Shown here piece after piece: positions 547 to 13,062 of a DNA stretch of 64,000 nucleotides. Every line of letters starts with the position of its first letter. Position 1 is the first letter of the stretch. A model generated the notes under the pieces. That model did no database searches, was not told the origin of the DNA, and was given only the letters and a program-made list of their open reading frames with translations. The DNA comes from Leptolyngbya sp. FACHB-261 (GTDB lineage: Bacteria > Cyanobacteriota > Cyanobacteriia > FACHB-261), in contig NZ_JACJPL010000013.1 in the NCBI RefSeq assembly GCF_014696065.1, forward strand, positions 62,001 through 126,000, given 5' to 3'. The position numbers and the translations under genes were made by a program.

Positions 547-651
547 GAGCATTGGCTTTGATCATTGTTTCAGTTGCGTTGAACTTACAATTTCCAGAGA
601 CGTTAGGCTGAGATCAATGCTCGCTGAGACAGCTTTGAATACAGCCTGACT

Positions 652-1881
652 ATGTTGCGCAAGCCTCACATCTTCTTCAATCCGTTTTATGCAGGCGGTA
701 CGGTTCGGCCCCGCTTGGTTGCACCAGGGCCAGAAACTAAGCAGGCAGCCCGTGATGTGCGCTTGATTCTGGAGACTTTTGCGCAATACATTGGCCAGCC
801 ACAGAGTGAAGCTTACAAAGCCCTCAACACCTTGCGCCAACAGAAAGTGGGCGTAGAAGATAAGCGCTGGCAGGGTTTAGTCCACCTGATTGGCAAAGAG
901 TATATCGATGCCGAGATGCAATCGCCGCTCAGCCCCCAAGAGGTGCGCAAAGAAGTCTTTGAAAGAGCGGCAGTTCTACACCCGCTCAACCTTGAGTCGC
1001 GGAGTCATTTGTTGCTGCAAATTGCTTCAGAGTGGGGCTGCACGCCTGCGGAGATTGAACATAGCCTTTATGCCGATCTGGCCGACCGCAAAATTCTCCA
1101 GTCCTTTGAGGTGCCTACCCCCGAAGCCGTCCTCAGCCGTTACAATCTGGCTCAAGCTCAGGGTCTACTCTACTGGGCACGACGCCTGACAATTACGCTG
1201 CGGCGCACAGAGCCCTTTCAAGTCAAATACCTGTTCAAGCACATCAAACGCCTGCGTCTGATGCACGATGTGCGCGGCAATCCGGAGTTGGGCTACGAGA
1301 TCAGCCTGGATGGGCCTATTTCGCTACACAGAGCCAGCACCCACTATGGCGCCGATCTCGCCCAACTGCTGCCCGCGCTGCCTCACATTCAAGATTGGAG
1401 TTTCAGTGCCAGCCTAGAGCACAAAGGCAAAAGCTTCACCTGGACCAGTAGCCCCAGCCAGTTTCCGTCTTATAGCCACTACTTACCGCCCAATAATTAC
1501 GACAGCCCTGTAGAACTAGCCTTTGCTAACGCATGGGCCAAACTTGACACGCCTTGGAGCATGCTACGGGAGCTAGAGGTCATTGATTTGGGCAGCACTG
1601 TCCTCATCCCCGATTTTGTCTTGGAGAACCCAACTGCGAACCCATCACGAGTGAGCTTAGAGATCGTCGGCTACTTCAATCAGGCGTACTTCGAGCGCAA
1701 GTACAGTAAGCTACTGCGCTCTCCCCATCCAGCCCTGATTCTGGCCATTTCGCGCAAGTTTCGCGAGTTTGCACCATTGCTGGAACAGCTACCCTGCCCT
1801 GTAGTTTGGTACTCCACTGAGGTCAGTGCACGCAGCGTGCTTCAGGTGCTTGGACAATTGCCCCAGTCAGAGGCTATCTAG
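652..1881 (+). CDS. DUF790 family protein, Bax1-like PD-(D/E)XK nuclease
   Basis: This 409-residue protein has the layout of DUF790, the family of the archaeal Bax1 nuclease that works with the XPB helicase. The C-terminal third carries a restriction-endonuclease-like core: VELAFANAW (about 287-295), then D321 in LIPDFVLEN, E337 in VSLEIVGYF and K350 in YFERKYSKL, which I take to be the acid-acid-lysine metal centre. The family relation and motif are seen; nuclease activity is inferred. Archaeal and many bacterial homologues are encoded beside an XPB-type helicase. None is visible here, although it could lie elsewhere in the genome. The start ATG at 652 has no strong ribosome site, so the exact N-terminus is uncertain. 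Confidence 0.75.
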   Translation: MLRKPHIFFNPFYAGGTVRPRLVAPGPETKQAARDVRLILETFAQYIGQPQSEAYKALNTLRQQKVGVEDKRWQGLVHLIGKEYIDAEMQSPLSPQEVRKEVFERAAVLHPLNLESRSHLLLQIASEWGCTPAEIEHSLYADLADRKILQSFEVPTPEAVLSRYNLAQAQGLLYWARRLTITLRRTEPFQVKYLFKHIKRLRLMHDVRGNPELGYEISLDGPISLHRASTHYGADLAQLLPALPHIQDWSFSASLEHKGKSFTWTSSPSQFPSYSHYLPPNNYDSPVELAFANAWAKLDTPWSMLRELEVIDLGSTVLIPDFVLENPTANPSRVSLEIVGYFNQAYFERKYSKLLRSPHPALILAISRKFREFAPLLEQLPCPVVWYSTEVSARSVLQVLGQLPQSEAI

Positions 1882-2785
1882 GCCAGGGACAAAATCAAGC
1901 AATCTGAAACTATACAGTGAGCAGAAATACTTATTTGTATGATAAGCTACAAATATGGGAGATGCTCGCTGGAGCTGCACCCCAGTTTTACTGCACACAC
2001 TCCAGGTAAGTCACATGAACACACACAGAAACGAAGCCCCTCAAGCCATCAAAAACCCTGCTGAGCGTATCTTCTGGGCACTACAGTTAGATTCCAGTGA
2101 TGGAACTGAAGCTACCCTCCCATCAGGAGCGACTAGCGACACGACCAGTCCTAGAGGTTCTCATCATCCTCAGCGATAGATACAATAGATACAGCAGCCT
2201 CTTAATCCGGCTCTTACCCCAGTTAACAAACCGACATCAGTCTATAGAAACAGCGCTCGGCTAAGAAGGTCGGGGGGCTTTTAGCATTCCAGTAATGGTA
2301 TTGCTTGCTTAACCGGCTGTCCAAAGTTACGCCACTAACTGGATTAGAATCATGGGTGTATACCCAAGGGGATAGGAGCACTACTCGCCTCACTAGTTGA
2401 GCTTGCTAGTAATGCTCCTTATCCTGCTTGTCAACGGTCTAAAAATCTTCGCATTTTACTGGATAGCTGTACTGAAGAGCTAGAATCATCTAGCCTTCAA
2501 GGTTTCATCGGCTCGATGCATCTGCCTAATGATGCAAACAGGATAGGAGGTAAATCACTCAATTGGCAGTGTTAGCTCGAAAAATATTGATATTAAGCTT
2601 ATCTAAAACCAATAATTGGGAAAGGCAATTGATAAGGTGACGGGTTAAGTGGGCACGAGGCTTTTTAGAGCGGCTTCTGCTCGCTTGTCCTAGCCCCTCA
2701 AACTTGCAAGATTGCATCACTGCATCAAAACCTACATCAAAATCTACGGTCCTAGGCTATTTTCCTGCTCTCTCGTTTAAACCTC
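1882..2785. other. Long intergenic stretch with a large imperfect hairpin
   Basis: About 900 bases separate the DUF790 gene from the ExoD gene. The clearest structure is an imperfect inverted repeat: GGATAGGAGCACTACT (2370-2385) against AGTAATGCTCCTTATCC (2408-2424), about 15 pairs with one bulge and one mismatch. A G-rich run followed by TTTT at about 2269-2281 could end a short transcript. One possible small gene is listed separately. No match to a known riboswitch or structural RNA was recognised. Confidence 0.4.
1955..2179 (+). CDS. Possible small hypothetical protein
   Basis: A 74-codon frame; an internal ATG at 2015 would give 54 residues (MNTHRNEAPQ...). The segment NPAERIFWALQLDSSDG could form a short amphipathic helix; the rest is Ser/Thr/Pro-rich and looks disordered. 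No strong ribosome binding site precedes either start and no family is recognised. It is listed because it is the only sizeable frame in a 900-base gap, but it may be chance. Confidence 0.2.
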   Translation: MGDARWSCTPVLLHTLQVSHMNTHRNEAPQAIKNPAERIFWALQLDSSDGTEATLPSGATSDTTSPRGSHHPQR

Positions 2786-3430
2786 ATGTCTGTTACCTCT
2801 AGTCCGCCACGAACTCTGCAAACCTCCAGGTTACTACGACGGTTTCTGCAACAGCACAGGGGAGACTCTATTCGGCTTAGGGACCTATTTCAAAGTATGG
2901 GAAGCCGCGCTTTTGGGCCTACCCTGCTAGTTTGTTCACTGCCGGAGGCTCTACCCCTACCAATTGCTGGTGTATCAGCGATTTTTGGGATTCCGCTGAT
3001 GTTAGTCTCAGCACAACTAATTTTAGGCTTTTCAAAACCCTGGTTGCCCGGTTGGATTGCAAACCGCTCTTTCAAACGAGTTCAGTTTGAAAAGATTATC
3101 AATAAAGGCTTACATTACCTTGAGAAGATTGAGCGACTGGTTCAGCCTCGCTGGCGCTTTGCAACTACGCCTGGAGCAGAGAGGTTGCTTGGACTGCTGT
3201 TGCTTGTCCTGGCAATTGTGATTGCTTTGCCAATTCCGTTTGCTAATATGTTGCCAGCTATTGCCATCTTGCTAATCAGCCTCGGCATGATTGAGGGGGA
3301 CGGCGCACTAATCGTTGTCGGTGTGCTCAGTTCCTGTGTACTCCTTGCCGTTCTAGTAGGAGCTATCTCCACCCTCGTGCCAGCGGGCAAAGCACTCTTG
3401 GCCAAACTGCTGGCTAAGCTGCCAGGTTAG
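2786..3430 (+). CDS. exoD: ExoD family membrane protein (exopolysaccharide synthesis)
   Basis: The 214-residue product matches the ExoD family in length and pattern. A basic cytoplasmic N-terminus (LLRRFLQQHRGDSIRLRDLF) is followed by the family signature GSRAFGPTLLVCSLPEALPL and then several membrane segments (about 46-90, 132-170 and 174-200). ExoD was first described in rhizobia, where mutants are defective in exopolysaccharide and alkali tolerance; its biochemical role is unknown. The neighbours do not form a polysaccharide cluster, so only the family is assigned. The gene stands alone, with a 350-base AT-richer upstream region. Confidence 0.8.
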   Translation: MSVTSSPPRTLQTSRLLRRFLQQHRGDSIRLRDLFQSMGSRAFGPTLLVCSLPEALPLPIAGVSAIFGIPLMLVSAQLILGFSKPWLPGWIANRSFKRVQFEKIINKGLHYLEKIERLVQPRWRFATTPGAERLLGLLLLVLAIVIALPIPFANMLPAIAILLISLGMIEGDGALIVVGVLSSCVLLAVLVGAISTLVPAGKALLAKLLAKLPG

Positions 3431-3922: not shown

Positions 3923-4061
3923 TTAGATCTCAAGATCAGTGAATCCGGTTTAGGCCAATCACGATACTGGCGGCTTGCCCAAATCATGAGCAGATTACGA
4001 GCACATTAGGATTGGGTAAAAACCGTTGCAGGAATGGACCTTTCTGATATAGCTGATATAT

Positions 4062-4742
4062 ATGGTAATCCTCCTGGTGGAAGACGACCCAGCGCAATTG
4101 GAGCCTCTCCAGGCAGCCCTGTCACAAGCAGGCCACATTGTTGATGCGGTTGAAGATGGAGAGACAGCCCAATGGCTTCTGTCGCAGAAGGACTATGACT
4201 TACTGATCTTGGACTGGATGCTCCCTAAAGTCAGCGGGGTTAGTCTGTGTCACCAATACCGACAATCTAGTAGAACGGCTCCCGTGCTGATGCTCACTGC
4301 CAAAGATACGACTGCGGACAAAGTCACGGGGCTAGACGCGGGCGCTGACGATTATCTGGTGAAACCAGTGGATGTCATTGAGCTCCTAGCACGGGTCCGA
4401 GCCCTCGGACGGCGTTCGCCCCTGTGGCAGGGAGATATGCTCAGCACTGCCGACTTAAATCTGCACCTGCCCCGTCTGCTCCTGGAGCGGCAGCAAGTCG
4501 AAGTCCAACTGTCGGTTCGGGAGTTCCAGCTCATGGAGTATCTCATGCGTCATCCGCGTCAGGTTCTATCGCGTGAGCAGATTGAGCAAGCCCTGTGGTC
4601 ATGGGGAACCGAGCCCGAAAGCAATGCAGTAACTACGCTAGTTCGGCGCCTCCGGCAACGCCTACAAGCAGTTGGTGCCAAAGATTGGTTAGAAACGGTT
4701 TATGGCATGGGGTATCGGCTCAATGCCCCAGAGCACGCCTAA
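4062..4742 (+). CDS. rppA: OmpR-family response regulator, RppA-like
   Basis: 226 residues: a receiver domain (1-118) with acidic pocket EDD (7-9), phosphoacceptor D51 in LLILDWMLPK, T79 in MLTAKD and the Lys switch in DDYLVKP. It is followed by a winged-helix DNA-binding domain (about 128-222) ending TVYGMGYRLN, as in OmpR/PhoB. Sequence style and the adjacent kinase resemble cyanobacterial RppA/RppB (NrsR/NrsS in Synechocystis), linked to nickel and photosystem gene control; the symbol rests on that resemblance only. The kinase ATG lies 29 bases after this stop, so the two form an operon. The start ATG at 4062 gives the canonical VILLVEDD beginning. Confidence 0.8.
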   Translation: MVILLVEDDPAQLEPLQAALSQAGHIVDAVEDGETAQWLLSQKDYDLLILDWMLPKVSGVSLCHQYRQSSRTAPVLMLTAKDTTADKVTGLDAGADDYLVKPVDVIELLARVRALGRRSPLWQGDMLSTADLNLHLPRLLLERQQVEVQLSVREFQLMEYLMRHPRQVLSREQIEQALWSWGTEPESNAVTTLVRRLRQRLQAVGAKDWLETVYGMGYRLNAPEHA

Positions 4743-4771: not shown

Positions 4772-6103
4772 ATGTTTAAGCGTAGTCGCCGCACTCTGGC
4801 TTATTGGTTTGCTCTCTCAATGGGCAGTATTCTAATTGTCTTTGCGGGCGTGATTTATTCGCTGGCAGTTGAAGAACAGCGTCAAGCTTTTGATCAGAAT
4901 TTATACGACGGCAGCCAAGCGATTGCAGCGAAAGCTCGCTATCGTTTTCAACAGGGACGGTGGCAGGTCGATTTGGAAGAGGTTCCCTTCCTAGGGAACA
5001 ATAATAATGCGCTAGCTCTCAACAGCAAACTTGCCTACGTTCGCTGGTATAACCAAGCGGGCTATCTGGTGCAGTTTATTGGTGCGCCAGCGCCGATAAG
5101 ACTGCAAGGTACATCAGGATTTAAAACCATAAAACCTAATTATTTAGGCAAAGATCCAGACAAGCTCAATGCCTCAAAAGCCTGGCTGCGACAAGTGACG
5201 CTACCAGTATTTCAGAACAATTTGTTGATCGGTTATTTGCAAGTAGCAGCACCGCTTCTGACACTACGGGAACGGCTCGATCAGGTTCGGCTATTTTTAG
5301 GACTCGGAGTGCCGATCACTCTGGGCATTATTGGCTTGGCTGGCTGGTTTTTGGGAGGAGTGGCGATGCGGCCCATCCGGCGTTCCTATGAGCAACTGCA
5401 ACAATTTACAGCCGATGCTTCCCATGAATTACGCGCTCCCCTTGCGGCGATTCTGAGCAATGCTCAGGTCGGGCTACTGTCGCCCGCCCATGATAGTTCA
5501 CAGCAGCGTTTGCGCTTGGAGAATATTGTCGGGATTACCAAGTCAATGAGTGGCTTGATCGATCACTTACTGTTTCTGGCGCGTCATGAAGGAGCCCTGG
5601 CCCCCGAACGCCTAAAAAGTGTTGATCTAGTCAACTTAATCCAGCGAGTGGTAGAAGACCAAGGGACTCTCGCCAAGGAACAAGGCTTACAACTGATCAG
5701 TCACCTACCGGTGCAACCCTTGAGCTTAAAAGCTGATCCAGATCTATTGCGACAGGCTGTGGTCAATTTGCTGAGTAATGCCTTCAAATATACGGCTTCC
5801 GGTGGCACGGTTCATTTGCGGCTTTTGAGCCAAGCACAGAAGGCAATTATTCAAATCGAAGACAATGGCATTGGCATTCCAGCCACTGATTTACCCCATG
5901 TCTTTGAACGGTTTTATCGAGTTGATACAGCCCGTTCCCGGCAGACCGGGGGTTTTGGCTTGGGATTATCAATTGCGCAGCAAATCGCCCAAGCGCATCG
6001 GGGGCGGATCAGCGCAACTAGCACAGTTGGGCAGGGAGCAATTTTTCAAATCGAGTTGCCTCTTAAGCCAGGCCCTGTCATTGGGCGTCAATTGGGCGTT
6101 TAG
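4772..6103 (+). CDS. rppB: Sensor histidine kinase, RppB-like
   Basis: 443 residues from ATG 4772 (MFKRSRRTLAYW). This start is chosen because upstream codons in the frame overlap the regulator gene and look non-coding. It has two membrane helices (about 10-33 and 172-196) enclosing a periplasmic sensor of about 135 residues. A HisKA domain carries H218 in TADASHELRAPL, and the ATPase domain has an N box (NLLSNAFKYT), G1 (DNGIGIP) and G2 (GGFGLGLSIA). The sensor domain has no His, Met or Cys cluster, so direct metal sensing is not evident. It phosphorylates the regulator encoded just upstream. The DUF6152 and DUF6644 genes follow after 250 bases and may be its targets (inference). Confidence 0.8.
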   Translation: MFKRSRRTLAYWFALSMGSILIVFAGVIYSLAVEEQRQAFDQNLYDGSQAIAAKARYRFQQGRWQVDLEEVPFLGNNNNALALNSKLAYVRWYNQAGYLVQFIGAPAPIRLQGTSGFKTIKPNYLGKDPDKLNASKAWLRQVTLPVFQNNLLIGYLQVAAPLLTLRERLDQVRLFLGLGVPITLGIIGLAGWFLGGVAMRPIRRSYEQLQQFTADASHELRAPLAAILSNAQVGLLSPAHDSSQQRLRLENIVGITKSMSGLIDHLLFLARHEGALAPERLKSVDLVNLIQRVVEDQGTLAKEQGLQLISHLPVQPLSLKADPDLLRQAVVNLLSNAFKYTASGGTVHLRLLSQAQKAIIQIEDNGIGIPATDLPHVFERFYRVDTARSRQTGGFGLGLSIAQQIAQAHRGRISATSTVGQGAIFQIELPLKPGPVIGRQLGV

Positions 6104-6356: not shown

Positions 6357-6755
6357 ATGCTCAAGCAGGGACTCAAGAACGCGCTCAAGCAAAGGCTGAT
6401 GCAGATCGTGATGGCTGTAATTGCAATCGCAGCCCTGGTCACGATTGAAGCGGAACGAGCCAGTGCGCACCACGGCTGGAGCGAGTACAACAATCAGCAG
6501 ACTCTAAACCTCACAGGGCAAATTCGCAGTGTGGGCTATGCCAATCCACACACGGTTATTCAAGTTGAAGCTGCCGGTAAAGTGTGGCGTGCGGTTTTGG
6601 CCCCGCCTGCTCGTATGCAACGTCGAGGTTTGCCCCAGAATGCCCTGCGAGTCGGCCAGACTGTACGAATCGTTGGCTATCCCCACCGCAGCGAGGCCAA
6701 CGAAATGCGGGCAGAGCAGATTGTGCTCAGCAACCAGACGGTGGAGTTGCGCTAA
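6357..6755 (+). CDS. Secreted DUF6152 protein with N-terminal His-His
   Basis: 132 residues with a strong ribosome site (GAAGGAGATC) before the ATG. A signal peptide (basic start, hydrophobic 15-30) ends ERASA, so signal peptidase cleavage would expose HHGWSEYN at the mature N-terminus (H38, H39). This HHGW-type start is the hallmark of DUF6152. The rest is a small beta-rich domain (LTGQIRSVGYANPHTVIQVEA ... LRVGQTVRIVGYPHR) resembling an OB or CopC-like barrel. Function is unknown. An exposed N-terminal His suggests metal, perhaps copper, binding; that is inference. The stop codon overlaps the next gene's ATG by one base (TAATG), implying translational coupling. Confidence 0.75.
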   Translation: MLKQGLKNALKQRLMQIVMAVIAIAALVTIEAERASAHHGWSEYNNQQTLNLTGQIRSVGYANPHTVIQVEAAGKVWRAVLAPPARMQRRGLPQNALRVGQTVRIVGYPHRSEANEMRAEQIVLSNQTVELR

Positions 6756-7246
6756 TGGAGCTGCCTGCGGCCACAGACTGGTCTTGGTTGGAGAACAGTG
6801 TTCTAGCCACTGTGATTCGCGACTGGATCTGGCTCTATCCCCTGGTTGAAACTGTGCACATTTTGGCACTGGCAATCCTGTTCGGAACGGTGACCATGTT
6901 CGATCTCCGTCTGCTTGGGTTTTCCCATCACCTGTTAGTGACGGATCTTGTACAGTTCCTGTTACCTTGGGCTTACCTCAGCTTCGGCATTGCCGTGCTT
7001 TCAGGGCTGCTCCTGTTCGCAGTCGATGCCACTGAGATAGCAGTCAATCCTGCCTTTCGCTGGAAACTGCTCCTGATGACTGGAGCAGGGATTAATGCAG
7101 CTAGCTTCCATGCTGGCCCTTTCAGATCTGTCAAACGCTGGAACCGAGGAATCCGAGTGCCAACCATAGTTCAGATTATTGCTGGGCTTTCTCTGATTCT
7201 GTGGACGGGGGTCATCATCTGTGGACGCATGATTGCCTATGTCTAA
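6755..7246 (+). CDS. DUF6644 family membrane protein
   Basis: 163 residues from the ATG that overlaps the DUF6152 stop. There are four predicted membrane helices. The first region contains ETVHILALAILFG followed by TMFDLRLLG, a conserved His and acidic-Arg arrangement typical of DUF6644; a second His lies in NAASFHAGPF. The combination of a membrane-embedded His and a secreted partner is reminiscent of CopC/CopD pairs, but no homology to CopD can be claimed by eye. The overlap with DUF6152 argues that the two proteins act together at the cytoplasmic membrane. Confidence 0.7.
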   Translation: MELPAATDWSWLENSVLATVIRDWIWLYPLVETVHILALAILFGTVTMFDLRLLGFSHHLLVTDLVQFLLPWAYLSFGIAVLSGLLLFAVDATEIAVNPAFRWKLLLMTGAGINAASFHAGPFRSVKRWNRGIRVPTIVQIIAGLSLILWTGVIICGRMIAYV

Positions 7247-10690: not shown

Positions 10691-12220
10691 GTGGGTTCAG
10701 TCCGTTTCGCCCCTGGGGATACCCCTTTGAGCCCACGTTGGAGTCAAGCTAGCCTGCCGCAACCTCGCTGGTTGCTGCTACTCCTGTCACTTCTGCTGAT
10801 TGCCCTTTCCTGGTGGGGACTGCTGGCTGCACGCACAGGCTTAAATGTGCGTTCCCTAGAGCACGATGGCGTGCCGATGCTGTATCTGGCACTGCAGCAG
10901 GCGAGCCAAGCACCAGGGGTTCTGATTGCGCATGGCTATGCTGGCTCCAAGCAGTTAATGCTGGGCTACGGTTACACCCTGGCCCGGTCTGGCTATGCAG
11001 TGATGCTATGGGACTTCGATGGTCACGGTGCTAACACAGCTGCTCTAGAACGTCTTTCGCTCCAGAGAAATCTTGATACCGCCTATGCTGCCCTCCTGGA
11101 GCAGCCCGAAGTTGATCCCAAACGTCTAGCCCTCCTTGGCCATTCAATGGGCAGTGGTGCGGTGATGTCTGCGGCGATTCAAGACCCAGCTCGCTTCGCA
11201 GCAACGGTTGCAATCTCCCCTACAGGTGCGGCAGTCACACCCGAAACCCCTCGCAATCTGATGCTGCAAGCCGGAAGTTGGGAGCAGGGTTTCGTTGCCA
11301 ATGCTCAACGACTGCTAGCGGCAGCGGGTGGCGAAAACAACGACTTAGCCGGGGGACGGGGGCGGACCTTTGTGCTGATCCCTAAAGCTGAGCACATCAC
11401 CATCCTCCTGCGGCCTATCAGTCATCAGGCTGCGCTTAACTGGCTCGACCAGACCTTTAACCTGCTACGCTCGGCCCAGGCTACCATGCAGCCCTATATC
11501 GACCGGCGCTTTCTCTGGTATGGGCTGCATTTGCTGGCCTGGTTGCTATGCCTCAGCGCCCTCGCACCAACCCTGACGGCCATTGTCCCTGAGAGCAAAG
11601 TGACAAGCAGTCGCCTCAGACGCTGGGGTGGGTTGCTGCTATCGCCTCTGTTGGCCGGTGGAGCGCTGCTGTTGCTCAGCCGTAGCATCCAACTCGAGAG
11701 TTTGGGAGGCGTGCAGGTCGGCGGTGCTGTCGGTCTCTGGTTTCTGGTAGCTGGCCTGGTCTGGCTGGCGAGCCTATTTCGCCTACCCCGACCCACGCTG
11801 CCAGCCCTCGGTGTGGGCGCTGTGCTGTTCGGGTTACTTTGGCTTGCCTTTGGGGTGATGGCACAAGAAGTTTGGCTGCAATGGTGGCTCTTAGCAGGAC
11901 GGCTACGCCTATGGCCCCTGCTCGCGGTAGCCTGTGTGCCTTGGTTCCTTGCCTCAGGCTTAGCCCAACGTCATGCTGGAGGGGCGGAGCGTCTGCTGTG
12001 GTGGCTGGCGCAAAGTGTGGTGTTAGTGGTGGGCTTTGGTTGGCTGACTCAATTACTGCCTCAATTGGGCTTTATTTACCTGTTGCTGCCGTTATTTCCA
12101 CTGTTGATGGCTATGTTTGTTTGGATCGCAGCCTTGCTCCGGGATGCTTGGAGTTACGCTTTGGGCAGTGCCCTGTTCTTCGGCTGGGTTTTGGCTGCCG
12201 TCTTTCCCCTAGCGTCTTGA
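10691..12220 (+). CDS. Membrane-anchored alpha/beta hydrolase with C-terminal multi-span domain
   Basis: 509 residues from GTG 10691. The N-terminal helix (27-46) anchors an alpha/beta hydrolase domain (about 50-265) with oxyanion segment IAHGYAGSK, nucleophile S152 in LLGHSMGSG and a probable catalytic His in KAEHITILL. The remainder (about 285-509) holds six to seven membrane helices rich in Leu and Trp. Hydrolase plus polytopic membrane tail is an unusual architecture; substrate unknown, though lipid or ester hydrolysis at the membrane is plausible. It lies between the J protein and the peroxiredoxin on the same strand, with short gaps. Confidence 0.75.
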
Positions 12221-12327
12221 CTAGGTGGAATCGCGTCACAGCAAGCAGATTTCGGAAGCTGCGATTGGTAATCTTTACAGCTCGCCGAGAAGTTCAGAGT
12301 GAAATTCATAGCCAAGGAGTCAGACTG

Positions 12328-13062
12328 ATGGTGTCTAGCCGTGAAGGCCAAAGAGTTCCCAAAGTCACTTTTCGTACTCGCCAAAATGGTCAATGGCAAG
12401 ACGTGACCACAGATGAATTATTTACGGGTAAAAACGTCATTGTTTTCGCGTTGCCAGGGGCATTCACTCCAACCTGCTCCTCCACACACCTACCGGGTTA
12501 CAACGAGCTGGCTAAAACCTTTAAGGAAAATGGTGTAGATGAAATTATCTGCCTTTCGGTTAACGATCCCTTTGTAATGAATGAATGGGCAAAGGATCAA
12601 GAAGCAGAAAACATCACCATGATGCCCGATGGCAATGGCGAGTTCACGGATGGTATGGGCATGTTGGTGGATAAAGCAGATCTGGGGTTGGGCAAGCGCT
12701 CTTGGCGCTACTCAATGCTGGTGAAAGATGGTCTGATTGACAAAATGTTTATTGAACCTGATGAACCCGGCGACCCTTTCAAGGTCTCAGATGCGCAAAC
12801 CATGCTCAAACACATTAATCCCCAGGCTTCGAAACCGAAGTGCGTTTCCCTGTTTACCAAGGTGGGCTGCCCCTTCTGCGCCCGAGCTAAGGAAATGCTG
12901 ACCGAGCACGGACTGAATTACGAAGAAATCACCTTAGGCGAGAATGCAACTTCTCGCTCGCTCAAGGCGGTTACCGGAGCAACAACAGTTCCCCAAGTTT
13001 TTATTGATGGCCGCTTGATTGGCGATTCTGAAGCTTTGGCCAACTATCTCAAAACGGCCTAG
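12328..13062 (+). CDS. Peroxiredoxin-glutaredoxin fusion (hybrid PGdx)
   Basis: 244 residues from ATG 12328, chosen because AAGGAG lies at 12314-12319 and the upstream frame has no family match. The Prx5-type peroxiredoxin domain (1-165) has peroxidatic C50 in [12 protein letters not shown]. The glutaredoxin domain (about 170-244) has the dithiol site CPFC (C181, C184) and TVPQVFIDG. Hybrid Prx5-Grx proteins reduce peroxides using glutathione without a separate glutaredoxin; they are known from Haemophilus, Chromatium and several cyanobacteria. The protein is soluble and cytosolic. Length and motifs are intact. Confidence 0.92.

Follow-up and report, generated by a model that had tools for sequence, protein, structure and literature searches.

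A cyanobacterial DUF6152–DUF6644 gene pair as a candidate CopC/CopD-like metal relay with an N-terminal His-His on a predicted OB-fold

The adjoining DUF6152 and DUF6644 genes of Leptolyngbya sp. FACHB-261 probably encode a metal-handling pair, as judged from their sequences and those of their relatives. They lie in a 64,000-nucleotide stretch of contig NZ_JACJPL010000013.1, hereafter called "the window". We propose that the pair forms a CopC/CopD-like relay for a metal that is most likely Cu(II), in which the secreted half is an OB-fold protein and DUF6644 is the membrane half. We give this reading a probability of about 0.5.

How would such a pair handle a metal ion? DUF6152 would be exported, and in most lineages the signal peptidase would cut directly before the His-His. 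The mature OB-fold protein would then bind a transition-metal ion, most likely Cu(II), and the candidate ligands are the N-terminal His-His and probably His28 of a Pro-His turn. Finally, DUF6152 would exchange the ion with DUF6644, in the manner of the relay from secreted CopC to membrane CopD, and the candidate receiving site is His35 with Lys104 near the outer membrane face. We infer that these ligands bind metal, that the metal is copper and that the two proteins touch; copper is favoured because of the link between DUF6644 and CopD. The features on which this proposal rests are collected in Table 1.

Table 1. Positions in the window of the gene pair, its key residues and the upstream two-component genes
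Feature	Coordinates	Strand	Basis
RppA-type response regulator (context only)	4062..4742	+	NF041734, 257.5 bits (cut-off 250)
RppB-like histidine kinase (context only)	4772..6103	+	NF041735, 307.9 bits (under cut-off 400)
DUF6152 gene, secreted protein, 132 aa	6357..6755	+	PF19649, 54.4 bits (cut-off 27)
Putative signal peptide, 37 aa, ending ERASA	6357..6467	+	(-3,-1) rule and entropy dips
Mature His1-His2 codons	6468..6473	+	HH kept in 106/107 relatives
Mature His28 codon, Asn-Pro-His turn between strands 1 and 2	6549..6551	+	Pro-His conservation
TAATG overlap of DUF6152 and DUF6644	6753..6757	+	sequence
DUF6644 gene, four-helix membrane protein, 163 aa	6755..7246	+	PF20349, 25.8 bits (cut-off 27)
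DUF6644 His35 codon, helix 1	6857..6859	+	100/100; on invariant CopD His
DUF6644 Lys104 codon, helix 3	7064..7066	+	100/100; on invariant CopD Lys
DUF6644 His119 codon, end of helix 3	7109..7111	+	88/100, otherwise Arg or Cys

The coordinates and sequence given in the initial annotation of this DNA were confirmed. It had proposed that cleavage after ERASA would leave a mature protein starting HHGWSEYN. The family bears this prediction out: the (-3,-1) rule is satisfied directly before HH in 98 of 105 distinct DUF6152 sequences. (We number mature residues from precursor H38, directly after ERASA.) Across these sequences, with one match carrying fewer than 12 residues before HH left out, the column entropy is 2.89 bits at position -4, 1.35 at -3, 3.13 at -2 and 0.49 at -1. 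By this residue pattern, the dips at -1 and -3 are the footprint of signal peptidase I. The seven exceptions are L008, which has Met at -3, and six sequences with Leu or Phe at -1, five from Balneolaceae and one from Gemmatimonadales. In these six members, the cleavage site may lie one to three residues nearer the N-terminus, or cleavage may fail altogether, and the free His1 amine is thus a non-universal feature. The free N-terminal histidine that the initial annotation had suggested therefore holds, as a prediction, for most lineages and is doubtful for these six sequences.

The His-His itself is conserved beyond these differences. An alignment of the family had been suggested as a check for an invariant HH, and 106 of 107 DUF6152 proteins keep it, followed in each case by Gly or Ser. 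The count is based on 108 HMM matches, one of which is the C-terminal half of a stop-broken gene in L023; the window and L001 stand outside it, as do 13 of the 44 matches from the class of a Rhodospirillaceae genome, for which no locus was read. Members lacking HH could escape the Pfam DUF6152 model, since the model spans the HH region, although the one exceptional protein, that of L004, was still matched. In alignments A4 and A6, in contrast, HH is invariant by construction, because the rows were cut at HH. A second conserved element is Pro-His, which every one of the 106 proteins with HH carries; its His is residue 28 in 87 proteins and residue 27 in 19. P27 and H28 are invariant in the 69 sequences of A4. 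By conservation, His1, His2 and His28 would be the candidates for a copper histidine brace, in which the amine and side chain of an N-terminal His and another His surround a single Cu. Moreover, DUF6152 proteins of the HHSF/HHSY/HHST type without an adjoining DUF6644 (in L010, L132 and L134) retain HH, so the motif is not bound to the DUF6644 partner alone.

The structure prediction for mature DUF6152 is an OB-fold with a mean pLDDT of 94.6, in which His28 opens strand 2 directly after the turn. The best-aligned solved structure is PriB (Z 10.4, rmsd 1.8, 74 aligned residues, 20% identity), while a sequence search of solved structures with DUF6152 gave no match. OB-folds commonly bind proteins or nucleic acids. 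A DNA-binding role suggested by the PriB and SSB fold matches is nevertheless not favoured, because DUF6152 is predicted to be exported and the OB is a common fold; we take the PriB likeness as one of fold only.

The partner gene starts within the stop codon of DUF6152, and the overlap of the two genes, previously noted, is one base long. The membrane protein was also correctly described as having four helices and a conserved His: its model (pLDDT 91.4) has helices at residues 27–53, 62–90, 99–120 and 137–159, and His35 is found in all 100 sequences of the conservation set, from which six of 105 matches, each shorter than about 120 aa, were excluded. Lys104 is likewise invariant in this set, followed by Arg52 (99), Arg158 (98), Asp50 (93) and His119 (88). 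Counts of charged residues put the N-terminus and loop 2 on the outer side of the membrane and loops 1 and 3 on the inner side, so that in the model His35 and Lys104 would lie toward the outer face, on the DUF6152 side, and His119 toward the inner face. The window protein narrowly misses the Pfam cut-off. It is 34–61% identical to the 66 other members of alignment A5, all of which match PF20349 at E <= 1, and it matches a profile of 60 relatives, the window protein included, at E = 7e-62. It is thus a family relative undershot by the Pfam model. The same model gives no match at E 0.001 in the cyanobacterial genomes G393 and G401 (L003 and L002), where a profile of relatives including both finds DUF6644 at about E 1e-58.

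Next, we compared DUF6644 with CopD. A profile built from 52 DUF6644 sequences aligns with seven CopD proteins at a score of 35.9 (E 2.9e-4, hhalign probability 40%), while 60 block-shuffled CopD alignments score no higher than 25.7 and a reversed CopD alignment scores 15.5. In this alignment, His35 matches the invariant His of the LH motif in CopD and Lys104 the invariant Lys of the AKL motif, and adding E. coli YebZ leaves both CopD residues invariant. At the level of single sequences, Pfam matches at E <= 1 among 67 DUF6644 members include CopD in seven (best 4.7e-6) and DUF2214, a family of unknown function, in 16 (best 2e-4); in the diverse set of 52 at E <= 0.01, CopD is matched once and DUF2214 nine times. 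The window DUF6644 has no match to Pfam CopD (PF05425). These comparisons suggest that DUF6644 is a distant relative of the C-terminal half of CopD. The likeness has limits: DUF6644 has four helices and its alignment starts beyond the first invariant His of CopD, in the GH motif, so that of the two invariant His residues in CopD alignments DUF6644 is aligned with one.

Is the association of the two genes a regular one? We scanned species genomes with a single DUF6644 peptide pattern and obtained 59 loci, which are free of any HH bias because they were found through DUF6644. DUF6152 lies directly upstream in 58 of them. The 59th, betaproteobacterial locus L034, has an intact DUF6644 and, just upstream of position 4001, a short frame ending CKTVELR and a stop. 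This frame resembles both ends of DUF6152 with the middle deleted and, by that resemblance, looks like a deletion remnant. Conversely, DUF6644 adjoins downstream on the same strand in 101 of the 108 DUF6152 matches; the other seven are L004, both genes of L010, both genes of L132, the L134 gene and L129, in which, read from coordinates, DUF6644 precedes DUF6152. In 103 pairs, spaced by the nearest in-frame start, 43 overlap, 24 are separated by 0–10 nt, 28 by 11–50 nt and eight by more. On plasmids, five loci were opened among the 20 DUF6644 matches listed (74 records in total). The preceding gene is a DUF6152 with HH in L169, L170 and L171, whereas the HH-bearing DUF6152 comes after DUF6644 in L172 and lies about 2.6 kb away on the opposite strand in L168.

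The surroundings of the pair vary: no family occurs more than five times among the 100 flanking ORFs taken from 30 loci, and the two genes are therefore themselves the unit. These 100 ORFs come from a crude caller, so that some may be spurious, and are what was scanned of 114, since 14 long ones were dropped, two of which were scanned separately. No copper family stands beside the pair among the 25 families listed of 104 found in the 100 ORFs, and a conserved neighbour as a clue to the metal was sought among the flanking ORFs and not found. In the window, the genes downstream of the pair encode a DUF2949 protein, an M28 peptidase and a trypsin-like (HtrA-like) protease.

The pair is widespread and patchy. 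Hosts of the 59 loci include Cupriavidus, Azospirillum, Rokubacteria, Balneolaceae, Meiothermus and a few cyanobacteria, among others. By the Pfam model, DUF6152 occurs in 38 of 289 genomes in the class of a Rhodospirillaceae genome, in six of 274 in the class of a Cupriavidus, in four of 59 among the relatives of the window genome, which is included, and in one of 386 in its phylum, namely the window genome itself. DUF6152 is thus rare in this phylum. In a tree of 104 mature DUF6152 sequences, which omits L023, L129 and L131, a single branch (99/93) has all eight cyanobacterial members on the same side, which would fit one entry into this phylum. When viral contigs were searched with DUF6152, 13 stretches matched a pattern and none of them encodes a relative.

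A single genome, G410, provides what is, by its sequence, a natural knockout, which lacks both the histidines and the membrane partner. Its locus (L004) has the same gene order as the window, with RppA 80%, RppB 53%, DUF6152 55%, M28 65% and HtrA 58% identical, and has no match to DUF6644 or DUF2949. A profile search at E 0.001 detected no DUF6644 anywhere in the genome, which is 100% complete by the tool used. Where the window protein reads ASAHHGWSEYN, the G410 protein reads ASAQSWSNYN, and NPH is replaced by NPI, with Ile at the position of His28. It is the sole one of the 107 proteins without HH. In the tree, it groups with the window protein (93/84, unstarred) on a branch of 0.78 versus 0.12, among relatives that have both the histidines and the partner. 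Over the mature part, it is 57% identical to the window protein versus 73% for the L013 protein, which is also nearer by path.

The near-obligate, CopD-related membrane partner strengthens the analogy with CopC that the initial annotation had drawn. As in CopC and CopD, a small secreted protein with a His at or near its mature N-terminus is followed directly by a membrane-partner gene; the footprint and the HH conservation point to such a mature N-terminal His in DUF6152. The E. coli yobA-yebZ genes have the same order, secreted then membrane, and in YobA the likely cleavage site reads Ala-His. On the other hand, DUF6152 has no match to the CopC family (PF04234), and its predicted OB-fold differs from the cupredoxin-like beta-sandwich of CopC. 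Bacterial copper entry is described as poorly understood, with CopC and CopD among the few candidates, in the consulted part of a study of B. subtilis YcnJ, according to which His24 of the CopC part and His295 of the CopD part are both required under copper limitation (PMC13344008). By this analogy, we infer that the direction would be uptake or delivery and not export. The pair does not regularly accompany CopC, nor does it strictly take its place, since CopC is present in 11 of 32 pair-bearing genomes and was not found in 21 of them, including that of the window. G410, with its solitary DUF6152, has a weak CopC match below the cut-off. Mutual replacement of CopC and the pair is rejected by their co-occurrence in 289 alphaproteobacterial genomes, where CopC is found in 17 of 38 with DUF6152 versus 36 of 251 without (odds ratio 4.8, p 4e-5); this association is not used as evidence, because kinship and genome size are uncontrolled.

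Other known systems share parts of this arrangement. CusF is also a small, secreted periplasmic OB-fold protein in copper handling. Its ligands, a His, two Met and one Trp, belong to the barrel, whereas the invariant His residues of DUF6152 lie at its N-terminus and in its first turn. Work on N-terminal-His metal proteins is active. A 2025 paper on signal-strapping describes, in the text consulted, four classes of N-terminal-His metal proteins—DUF4198, DUF6702, Ang-1 and Ang-2—in which a signal peptide is followed by a conserved His, as in DUF6152, and the Ang proteins also carry a membrane permease domain (PMC12537917). The same text describes DUF6702 and Ang-1 as beta-sandwiches, unlike the predicted OB-fold of DUF6152, and the Ang membrane half as HupE/UreJ, unlike DUF6644 (PMC12537917). 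Neither DUF6152 nor DUF6644 is mentioned in the searched text of 5.39 million open-access papers, and the word "OB-fold" is absent from the consulted part of a 2023 review of the histidine brace (PMC10952591). In the literature searched, mainly the main text of open-access papers, an OB-fold with an N-terminal-His metal site is unreported.

The metal need not be copper, and nickel, zinc or cobalt in its place is an unlikely alternative. The initial annotation had pointed to an RppAB-like two-component system upstream of the pair; the system is indeed present, with RppA above its cut-off, while the kinase stays below the NCBIfam cut-off. RppAB relatives are nickel or redox responsive, which would speak for nickel if the system belonged to the pair. 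As a functional clue, however, it is not supported: RppAB was seen beside DUF6152 only in the window and in the G410 locus, which lacks DUF6644, and it was rejected as a functional partner because it is not conserved beside the pair. Of the other cyanobacterial loci examined, L014, L056 and L065 have neighbours unrelated to RppAB, and L013 has a different two-component pair upstream (569-3247), made up of a CHASE3/PAS kinase and a LuxR-type regulator. Nickel is also the metal preferred by other N-terminal-His proteins, DUF4198 and DUF6702, in the consulted text of the signal-strapping paper (PMC12537917). Against all three metals stands the relationship of the membrane partner to CopD, a family named for copper. 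A reading that we consider quite improbable dispenses with metal altogether and makes HH a structural motif or a site at which the membrane partner docks. It draws on the Balneolaceae, in which HH is kept where cleavage directly before it is unlikely, on the DUF6152 proteins that keep HH without an adjoining DUF6644, and on the habit of OB-folds, seen in the fold neighbours and generally known, of binding proteins or nucleic acids. Against it stand the cleavage residues, which in most lineages are conserved exactly one position before HH, and the one lineage that lost HH and His28 along with the CopD-like partner while its DUF6152 remained recognizable (57%).

DUF6644 could also be a b-type haem protein, akin to HemJ or cytochrome b, with His35 as a ligand and DUF6152 as its periplasmic partner, in a pair that handles haem or electrons; we regard this as rather doubtful. 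The fold search gives it some grounds, since the top rows for the DUF6644 model include the designed two-haem protein 4D2 (Z 10.6, rmsd 2.4, 104 aligned) and cytochrome bd (Z 9.7, rmsd 3.2, 132 aligned), with b6f also matched (Z 8.2, rmsd 5.2, 135 aligned). However, two designed bundles titled as binding the small molecule HBC are ranked next to these (Z 9.6 and 9.2), and according to the fold-search tool a Z under about 13 is common among helical bundles. A sequence search of solved structures gave two rows only, at E 0.24 and 0.34. HemJ (protoporphyrinogen oxidase) has a helix-1 His and a helix-3 Lys at matching profile positions: HemJ His10 aligns with His35 and the HemJ Lys with Lys104. 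The aligned sequences are identified as HemJ by our reading of CopD-model matches, and they are longer, at up to 202 columns versus the 163 aa of DUF6644. The HemJ profile scores 23.6 (E 0.007, or 0.078 with a narrower profile), which lies below the best of 60 shuffles at 25.2, whereas CopD beats its own shuffles; HemJ was therefore rejected as a close relative of DUF6644 in spite of a coherent alignment. The CopD and HemJ profiles are themselves weakly related (E 0.004). A small C-x-x-C-H protein adjoins two DUF6644 genes in L168, which would fit a haem role. Judged by the order of the helices, His35 lies close to one membrane face and His119 close to the other, so that they are no obvious bis-His pair.

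The CopC/CopD-like relay can also be put in a bolder and more tentative form, in which the pair is a second, independently built system of the CopC/CopD type that joins a CopD-like half to an unrelated OB-fold copper carrier using the N-terminal His and His28. If this were true, an N-terminal histidine copper site would exist on an OB-fold, and N-terminal histidine metal sites could arise on another fold. The two-gene module would then extend across Pseudomonadota, Rokubacteria, Balneolota, Deinococcota and a few cyanobacteria. It would likely be a metal-acquisition module beyond surveys by known copper families, which would miss the pair because both genes are annotated only as unknown. In addition, a pair working like CopC and CopD would give two unnamed families a testable job.

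Several further arrangements were observed among the loci. In Leptolyngbya sp. FACHB-321 (L065, 3982-4473), DUF6644 is split across two frames beside an intact DUF6152, through either a sequencing error or a recent loss. Pseudoduganella flava (L067) carries two DUF6152–DUF6644 pairs inside about 4 kb. A second DUF6152 type, starting HHSF or HHSY, stands in tandem in L010 and L132 with no adjoining DUF6644, and in L010 a TonB-dependent receptor is encoded two genes past it; the same type lies near DUF6644 in L168 and L172. In the Novosphingobium plasmid locus L168 (3499-4992), two DUF6644 genes in tandem are followed by the gene of a small, haem c-like protein with CVACH. In the window itself, the C-terminal half of an ORF at 12200-13062 reads, by eye, as a peroxiredoxin-glutaredoxin fusion.
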